From: Dehalogenimonas alkenigignens
GTDB lineage: Bacteria; Chloroflexota; Dehalococcoidia; Dehalococcoidales; Dehalococcoidaceae
DNA: 64,000 nucleotides
Assembly: GCF_001466665.1 (NCBI RefSeq)
Contig: NZ_KQ758903.1
Span: 369,684-433,683, forward strand
Direction of reading: 5' to 3'
Of this stretch, positions 10,910-13,566 are shown in pieces. The notes under the pieces are model-generated. The model made no database searches. It was not told where the DNA came from and worked only from the letters and a program-made list of their open reading frames with translations. Positions within the stretch are counted from its first letter, which is position 1, and each line of letters begins with the position of its first letter. The position numbers and the translations under genes are program-made.

Positions 10910-10938
10910 TTGCGGCCTGTGGCTGTTGATGCTATCAT
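10910..10938 (+). promoter_or_regulatory. purM: Probable promoter of purM
   Basis: TTGCGG (10910-10915), a 17-nt spacer and TATCAT (10933-10938). The expected start point near 10945 gives a leader of about 20 nt that carries the SD AAGGAGA (10953-10959). Confidence 0.5.
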
Positions 10939-10965
10939 TTCGGCATCATTCCAAGGAGAAATTCC

Positions 10966-11979
10966 ATCAAACAGGACGCTTACGCCGCCGCCGGCGTATC
11001 CATCGACGCCGCGGTCCAGGCCAAAGAACGGATCAAGGAACTGGCTAAGGCCACCTTCACCCCGGGGGTGTTGGGTGGCCCGGGGTTTTTCGGCGGTATG
11101 TTCGAATTGCCGTCAGGCTTTAATAAACCGGTGCTTGTCTCCAGTTGCGATGGCGTCGGCACCAAGCTGAAGATCGCCGCGGCGATGGGCAAACATGACA
11201 CGGTGGGTATCGATATCGTCAACCACAGCGTCGACGATATCCTGACCTGCGGCGCCGAGCCGCTGTTTTTCCTCGACTATATCGCCATGGGCAAGCTCGA
11301 CCCGGTGATAGTGGCCGACGTTGTCAAAGGCCTGTCCATGGCATGTCAAGAGGTTTCCTGCGCCCTCGTCGGCGGCGAGACGGCTGAAATGCCCGGGCTG
11401 TACCACGGCAACGACTACGACCTGGCCGGCTTCATCGTCGGCATCGTCGAGAAGGACCGCATCCTTCACGGCCGCTCGATCAGACCCGGCGATGCCGTCC
11501 TGGGTTTGCCGTCAACGGGGCTGCATACCAACGGCTATTCTCTGGCCAGGAACGTCCTGGGTGAATCACCTTCGGCGATGGCTGCCCGCTACTCCACTCT
11601 GGACACCCCGGTCGGCGAGGCGCTGCTCAAGCCCCACCGCTCTTACCTGGCTGATTTGAAGCCGGTGCTTGGGGATGTCAAGGGGTTAGCCCACATTACC
11701 GGCGGCGGCTTTACCGACAACATCCCCCGCACCCTGCCGCCGGGCACCGCCGTCCGTATTAGCAAGGGCGCCTGGGAAGTGCTGCCGATTTTTGAACTCA
11801 TACAGAAGATCGGCGGCGTGGCCGAAGCCGAGATGTACCGGGTGTTCAACATGGGCATCGGCATGGTCGTCTTCGCCGACCCGTCGAAGGTTGCCGCGCT
11901 TATGCAGTCCATGCCGGAGGCTAAGATTATCGGCGAAGTCGCCGCCGACACCGGCGGCGGCCGGGTCATCCTCGAATAG
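10966..11979 (+). CDS. purM: Phosphoribosylformylglycinamidine cyclo-ligase (AIR synthetase), AUC start codon proposed
   Basis: It closes the imidazole ring of AIR in purine synthesis. The frame encodes the whole family: DAYAAAGVSIDAAVQAKERIK at the N-terminus, GGFGGMF-type loop, VSSCDGVGTKLKIA, GGETAEMPG, GLHTNGYSL, and THITGGGF-type (AHITGGGFTDNIPR). No ATG, GTG or TTG occurs between an in-frame stop at 10927 and GTG 11068. Starting at 11068 would remove 34 conserved residues and has no SD. AAGGAG lies 7 nt before ATC 10966, exactly where ATG is expected, giving 337 residues, the normal length. I therefore propose AUC initiation. A sequence error at this codon is the alternative. It is followed by purH at 51 nt. 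Confidence 0.9.
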   Translation: MKQDAYAAAGVSIDAAVQAKERIKELAKATFTPGVLGGPGFFGGMFELPSGFNKPVLVSSCDGVGTKLKIAAAMGKHDTVGIDIVNHSVDDILTCGAEPLFFLDYIAMGKLDPVIVADVVKGLSMACQEVSCALVGGETAEMPGLYHGNDYDLAGFIVGIVEKDRILHGRSIRPGDAVLGLPSTGLHTNGYSLARNVLGESPSAMAARYSTLDTPVGEALLKPHRSYLADLKPVLGDVKGLAHITGGGFTDNIPRTLPPGTAVRISKGAWEVLPIFELIQKIGGVAEAEMYRVFNMGIGMVVFADPSKVAALMQSMPEAKIIGEVAADTGGGRVILE

Positions 11980-12030: not shown

Positions 12031-13566
12031 ATGCGGGCAATCCTCTCCGTTTCCGATAAAACCGGCCTTGAGGCTTTCGCTGTTGAACTGGGCAAACTGG
12101 GTTGGGAGATTTTCTCCACCGGCGGCACCAAGAAATCCTTAACCCAGGCCGGAGTGCCGGTACACGCAATCTCGGACATCACCGGCTTCCCGGAAATCCT
12201 CGACGGCCGGGTCAAGACGCTGCATCCCATGGTCCACGGCGGCATCCTGGCCCGCCGCGACAAGGCAGACCATATGTCTCAACTGTCGGAGAACAAGATA
12301 ACCCCGATCGATATGGTGGTAGTCAACCTTTATCCCTTTGTCCAGACCGTGTCCAGGGCGGGCGTGTCGCTGGAGGAGGCTCTGGAGAACATCGACATCG
12401 GCGGACCCGCTATGATCCGGGCATCGGCCAAGAATTACCCGGGTGTCATCATCGTCACCGATCCCGCCGACTACCCGCTCCTCATCGAGAAATTGCGGGG
12501 CGGCGGCTTATCCCCGGATGAGCGGAAGCGCCTTGCCCAGAAAGCTTTCCAGCATACCGCGATGTACGATACTGCCATCGCCCAGTACCTGTGGCAGGGC
12601 AGCGCAGGCTTCCCGGACAACATGACTTTAGCCCTTAAAAAGCGCTATAACCTGCGCTACGGCGAGAACCCTCACCAGGCTGCCGCTTTCTACGCCGAGC
12701 ATCGCGTCGGCGCCGGGCAGAATTCCGGCATCACCTGGGCGGAGCAGCTGTGGGGCAAGGAATTATCATTCAACAACATCCTGGACGCCGACGCCGCCTG
12801 GGCGACGGCCACCGATTTCGAAGCGCCGACAGTGGCCATTGTCAAACATACCAACCCCTGCGGCCTGGCCAGCCGGGATGACGTTGCCGAGGCTTATCAG
12901 CGAGCTTTTGAAGGCGACCCGGTATCAGCCTATGGCGGCATTGTGGCAGTCAACCGGACACTTACCGCCGGGATGGCCGAGGCAATGCGCGGCACCTTCT
13001 ACGAAATCTCGATCGCCCCGGATTACGAAGAAGCGGCGCTGGTAATCCTCAGGAAACGCAAAGACCTGCGCATCTTGAAGGCAAGGCTGCCGGCGGCAGA
13101 GACGCAGCCGGCGCTCAATTACCGCCATGTTAAGGGTGGATTGCTGGTACAGCAGGCTGACGCCCTGCCGGAAGACCAGATTACCCTGAAGCCGGTGACC
13201 AGGCGCCAACCGACTAAAGAAGAATACGAGGACCTGCGCTTTGCCTTCAGGGCAGTGAAGCACATCAAGTCCAACGCTATCGTCCTGGTTAAGGATAAAA
13301 TGCTTTTGGGCATGGGCGCCGGACAGCCCAACCGGGTGACCAGCGTGGACATCGCTGTCAAGCGGGCCGGCGAGAAGGCTAAGGGCAGCGTCATGGCCTC
13401 CGACGCCATGTTCCCTTTCAACGATTCGGTGCTCCAGGCTGCGGCGGCCGGTATTGCTGCCATCGTCCAGCCCGGCGGTTCTATCCGTGACGAGGACTCC
13501 ATCAAAGCGGCGGATGAGAACGGCATCGCGATGGTCGTCACCGGCGTCAGACATTTCCTGCATTAA
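12031..13566 (+). CDS. purH: Bifunctional AICAR formyltransferase / IMP cyclohydrolase
   Basis: It catalyses the last two steps of purine synthesis: formyl transfer to AICAR from 10-formyl-THF, and ring closure to IMP. At 511 residues it is a normal length. The N-terminal MGS-like cyclohydrolase domain (1 to about 190) has FSTGGTKK, DGRVKTLHP and NIDIGGPAMIRASAKN. The transformylase domain has LRYGENPHQ, KHTNPCGLA, KSNAIVLVKD and the C-terminal AIVQPGGS. The SD AGGAGG precedes ATG. It is the second gene of purM-purH; both are conserved purine genes and probably cotranscribed. Confidence 0.97.
   Translation: MRAILSVSDKTGLEAFAVELGKLGWEIFSTGGTKKSLTQAGVPVHAISDITGFPEILDGRVKTLHPMVHGGILARRDKADHMSQLSENKITPIDMVVVNLYPFVQTVSRAGVSLEEALENIDIGGPAMIRASAKNYPGVIIVTDPADYPLLIEKLRGGGLSPDERKRLAQKAFQHTAMYDTAIAQYLWQGSAGFPDNMTLALKKRYNLRYGENPHQAAAFYAEHRVGAGQNSGITWAEQLWGKELSFNNILDADAAWATATDFEAPTVAIVKHTNPCGLASRDDVAEAYQRAFEGDPVSAYGGIVAVNRTLTAGMAEAMRGTFYEISIAPDYEEAALVILRKRKDLRILKARLPAAETQPALNYRHVKGGLLVQQADALPEDQITLKPVTRRQPTKEEYEDLRFAFRAVKHIKSNAIVLVKDKMLLGMGAGQPNRVTSVDIAVKRAGEKAKGSVMASDAMFPFNDSVLQAAAAGIAAIVQPGGSIRDEDSIKAADENGIAMVVTGVRHFLH

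Follow-up and report, generated by a model that had tools for sequence, protein, structure and literature searches.

To our knowledge, very few bacterial genes other than infC start with AUU or AUC, and these are scattered single cases. The pcnB gene of E. coli, which has an AUU start, shares with the purM gene described here the property of being a non-infC gene with an AUH start codon. The infC gene itself starts with ATT in E. coli and with ATC in Streptomyces, and such codons are disfavoured by IF3 (PMC5472188). Like infC, which is autoregulated through its AUU or AUC start, purM is an essential gene with a rare AUH codon, but it is a metabolic gene outside the initiation machinery, so that no direct feedback loop is evident. 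A second described case is Streptomyces sigR, which has a GTC start in 32 of 34 species examined and was shown by experiment to be repressed by IF3 (PMC5472188). Both sigR and purM are non-infC genes with a conserved non-canonical start, which in sigR is accompanied by an extensive ribosome-binding site; they differ in that sigR is a sigma-factor gene with a GTC codon conserved in one genus and an experimentally established effect of IF3, whereas the ATC of purM is predicted as a start from sequence comparison. Conserved non-AUG starts have also been proposed to tune the output of chloroplast genes (PMC9845219); these resemble purM in their conservation, but belong to plastids.

The purM gene considered here (phosphoribosylformylglycinamidine cyclo-ligase, 337 residues) is located at 10966..11979 on the forward strand of the window, the stretch of 64,000 nucleotides of Dehalogenimonas alkenigignens that was analysed, with its stop codon read from the sequence at 11977–11979. 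The host genome is a single contig of 1,851,576 bases with 56% G+C. An in-frame TGA stop is present at 10927..10929, and the first canonical in-frame codon is a GTG at 11068..11070. A scan of the sequence bore out the original prediction that the purM frame contains no ATG, GTG or TTG between these two positions; when all frames were scanned, none was found between an ATG at 10929 and this GTG. As had also been noted, a Shine-Dalgarno (SD) sequence AAGGAG (10953..10958) is separated by seven nucleotides (AAATTCC) from an ATC codon (10966..10968), and no SD precedes the GTG. Further upstream, a predicted -35-like element TTGCGG (10910..10915) is followed at a distance of 17 nucleotides by a predicted extended -10-like element TGCTATCAT (10930..10938). 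The combination TTGCGG-17-TATCAT looks like a sigma-70-type promoter, which would place the 5' end of the mRNA near 10945, about 20 nucleotides before the ATC. The downstream gene, identified from its sequence as purH (12031..13566, forward strand), has an ordinary ATG start and a leader that contains AGGAGG.

Several lines of evidence place the N-terminus of PurM at or close to the ATC. The frame read from this codon matches the NCBIfam purM profile TIGR00878 at positions 2–330 of 332 with 378.7 bits (cut-off 236.35), and it also matches the PDB entries 2z01 and 1cli. In solved full-length PurM chains, their own residues 3–14 align with residues 4–6 onward of the query, which puts the ATC at, or a few residues from, Met1, in line with the position assigned to it originally. 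If initiation occurs at this AUC, the protein would be expected to begin with the peptide KQDAYAAAGVSIDAAVQAK, either Met-initiated or in des-Met form. The pattern of nucleotide substitution among the eight genomes of the genus points to the same place. Codons 2–34 contain 53 variable sites, of which 30 are at third positions, 13 at first and 10 at second positions, whereas the variable sites in the 36 nucleotides before the ATC (5/7/8) have no third-position pattern; coding thus starts at about this point.

These data also bear on the possibility that the GTG at 11068 starts a functional PurM of 303 residues and that the similarity upstream of it is a relict. The shortened frame still scores 355 bits, far over the family cut-off of 236, although its match begins at profile position 35, which drops positions 2–34 and costs 24 bits. 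Nevertheless, the third-position bias in codons 2–34 and the invariant residues encoded by 18 of these 33 codons in the genus argue against a relict, as does the placement of the SD, which is found before the ATC in all eight genomes, none being present before the GTG of the window. Among five genus loci that were read at the place of the GTG, only one besides that of the window has GTG or is otherwise comparable. We therefore consider a start at the GTG very improbable. The earlier statement that it would remove 34 conserved residues is too strong for a segment in which 18 of 33 codons encode an invariant residue.

Comparison of PurM proteins and their upstream DNA among close relatives, as proposed with the original prediction, revealed AAGGAG and ATC at the equivalent place in all eight genomes of the genus (8/8), with PurM identities of 74–100%, and this strongly supports AUC as the purM start. 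The promoter-like elements are also common to the eight genomes, with TTGCG kept at equal distance and TGYTATCATT likewise kept in each. Within the first 120 codons, six further positions are isoleucine in all genomes and show a mixture of ATC, ATT and ATA, whereas codon 1 is ATC throughout; with so few codons compared, this uniformity is suggestive only. A single base change would make the codon ordinary, and an error of sequencing or assembly with ATG as the true codon could be imagined on that ground. The occurrence of ATC in eight separate genomes, and of ATT, ATC, ATA or CTG in dozens more, makes such an error next to impossible. Three family mates with smaller genomes have an in-frame TTG, not preceded by an SD, five codons upstream of the ATC, and the start of their purM is therefore ambiguous.

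The analysis was extended to 104 purM genes of the order, which were anchored on the motif Tyr-x-x-Ala/Ser-Gly and for which the possible starts were listed back to the stop codon. By definitions of our own for both the SD rule and the start classes, a start was called non-canonical if no ATG, GTG or TTG was present within 15 codons before the Tyr and an SD was followed by ATT, ATC, ATA or CTG at position -4 or -5. This resulted in 47 non-canonical, 47 canonical, 9 ambiguous and 1 unclear case, the non-canonical codons being ATT (30), ATC (11), ATA (4) and CTG (2). At least one non-canonical purM was found in 22 of the 32 families of the order. By a similar rule, which accepted canonical codons up to 30 codons upstream, no non-canonical start was found among 38 purM genes from other phyla. 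Taken together, it is very likely from these sequence comparisons that AUC initiation of purM is real, and that it is an old and conserved trait that extends beyond one genome.

The relatives also allow a judgement on whether translation could begin at a canonical codon farther upstream, combined with a frameshift, or could read through the TGA at 10927. The genome does have a tRNA-SeC gene, and the ATG at 10929 is in another frame. In six purM loci (L027, L032, L226, L254, L265 and L276), however, a TAG or TAA directly abuts the ATT, so that no upstream in-frame start is possible there. Moreover, the candidate codons in the window are situated within the conserved promoter-like element or before it, and no third-position pattern exists upstream of the ATC. 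A start of this kind is hardly credible.

Family tree analysis of the PurM proteins suggests that the start state has been passed on by descent and was gained or lost repeatedly, as 16 changes of state are required on the tree against at least 25 in each of 100 shuffles, the tree being a FastTree reconstruction with many weak forks. Ordinary ATG starts of purM are present in sister lineages, and with an ordinary start in 47 of the 104 genes of the order the weak start is not indispensable. A strong SD was found for 43 of the 47 non-canonical starts versus 16 of the 47 canonical ones (Fisher p 7e-9), a contrast that is partly built in, since an SD is demanded by the definition of the non-canonical class. 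These observations are in part those expected if the AUC is real but merely tolerated, a strong SD making the codon nearly irrelevant in slow-growing organisms, with neither regulation nor selection for weakness: the roughly 16 state changes, the association of strong SDs with non-canonical starts and the ordinary starts in sister lineages all favour it. We regard tolerance as a substantial possibility, yet one that we would sooner doubt than accept, because only a handful of the approximately 1,750 predicted genes is affected, because the same genes are affected across genera, and because the codon of purD turns over among weak codons.

These other genes, for which the names purD, rplU, hisA, infC and pyrE rest on well-known N-terminal motifs, emerged from several scans of the genome. 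In a codon-bias scan, which ranked the approximately 1,750 predicted genes according to the coding signal that precedes the first canonical codon, purD and purM were the top clear genes, with rplU and hisA lower in the ranking; several further entries resemble shadow ORFs or broken genes. The start region of purD is TTAAGGAG-ACTGCG-CTG, with CTG in all 11 genomes of the family (eight of the genus and three others). Elsewhere CTG, ATA, ATC, TTG or ATG is found at the equivalent place, and in G043, G026 and G149 an ATA or ATC immediately follows a stop codon. For rplU the start region is TGGAGG-TGCGCC-ATT. In 24 of 24 genomes matched, the codon that precedes the conserved Tyr-Ala, scored on its last two bases, is NTT; it is thus neither ATG, GTG nor TTG. 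The hisA gene has ATC with an SD CGGAG, and the codon at this place is ATC or ATA in 11 of 11 family genomes. In infC, GGGAGGTAG is followed by ATA-ATT-AAG-GAA, and the gene seems, from its sequence, to have no canonical start at its N-terminus and to use a weak one; a pattern search for infC in relatives matched few genomes. Finally, the pyrE start is probably the ATC at 787292, as judged from the sequence.

In a loose scan for an SD followed by a near-cognate codon, 30 near-cognates were observed against 34 expected, and this lack of an overall excess indicates that a handful of genes is concerned rather than a general laxity. When the scan was made strict, purM, purD and rplU were recovered, together with about 17 other codon types, one to three times each; by itself it is therefore no proof, and the relatives carry the argument. 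A tblastn comparison with 540 kb from a family mate yielded chiefly overlaps that were out of frame, and no additional gene stood out clearly. Weak starts look otherwise very rare in the D. alkenigignens genome. Apart from these genes, two near-identical ORFs on the minus strand outside the window, at G000:C1:613206 and 1739567 (435 and 432 codons from that point), have a coding signal that extends for 34 codons ahead of the first canonical start, with an ATC after TAAGG, and possibly represent a mobile gene that is repeated and begins at a non-canonical codon.

We propose that the AUC at 10966 would be read by the ordinary fMet initiator tRNA, and that its intrinsic weakness may be offset by a good, optimally spaced SD, on a leader of about 20 nucleotides that is short and weakly structured and would be transcribed from a promoter of its own. 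The combination of a weak codon and a strong SD would then give a low, adjustable output of PurM, and the weak start may have been kept in the order because such an output is favoured. The leader had no match in Rfam at E ≤ 1 and no marked structure in folding (z -0.94), and an RNA element in it was accordingly rejected. A dedicated initiator tRNA with an isoleucine anticodon was likewise considered: ARAGORN, judging by anticodon, identified one tRNA-Ile(GAT) and three CAT tRNAs, and gave no hint of one.

IF3 is encoded in the genome by one gene with an IF3_C domain (107.5 bits). Since IF3 represses such codons in E. coli and Streptomyces (PMC5472188), and since infC apparently has a weak start here too, sensitivity to IF3 is to be expected, and by analogy with infC it is plausible that purM is regulated by IF3. 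On this proposal infC, rplU, purM, purD, hisA and probably pyrE would form a small set of genes whose initiation should be IF3-sensitive. We consider the account as a whole likely, i.e. an fMet start at AUC with a strong SD, an old weak start kept for low or adjustable PurM, and membership of an IF3-sensitive set. A more far-reaching version, that these six genes with AUH or CUG starts constitute an ancient regulon in which the level of IF3 or the supply of free 30S subunits sets the synthesis of ribosomal protein L21 and of the enzymes of nucleotide and histidine synthesis together with IF3 itself, appears to us rather unlikely.

A non-canonical start is of a kind already known from infC and sigR. 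As far as could be found, the new features are that it occurs in a metabolic gene, that it reaches deep into the phylogeny and that purD, rplU and hisA share it. No report of an AUC or AUU start of purM, or of non-canonical starts in Dehalococcoides, was found in the open-licence literature. Gene finders limited to ATG, GTG and TTG will truncate such proteins, and the set of weak-start genes lends itself to asking whether starts discriminated by IF3 make up a regulon.

In addition, stop codons inside or directly before reading frames were observed outside the window. The tRNA-SeC gene is located at 453398–453492, and adjoining it, in the region G000:C1:452638-452961, is a selD-like ORF whose open frame starts directly behind a stop, at AAKIGPGDLAK, possibly a SelD with a selenocysteine of its own. 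A thioredoxin-like protein has an in-frame TGA at G000:C1:877162-877164 (...MFTGDW-TGA-GYCPFASRA..., a UxxC-type motif), and is possibly an overlooked selenoprotein. Finally, a ribonucleotide-reductase-like gene on the minus strand has an in-frame TAA at G000:C1:667389-667391 (TGCGEQAMLP-stop-ESCPLGSINLAQ), at a position that is Tyr in a family mate, and represents either a broken gene or an error.
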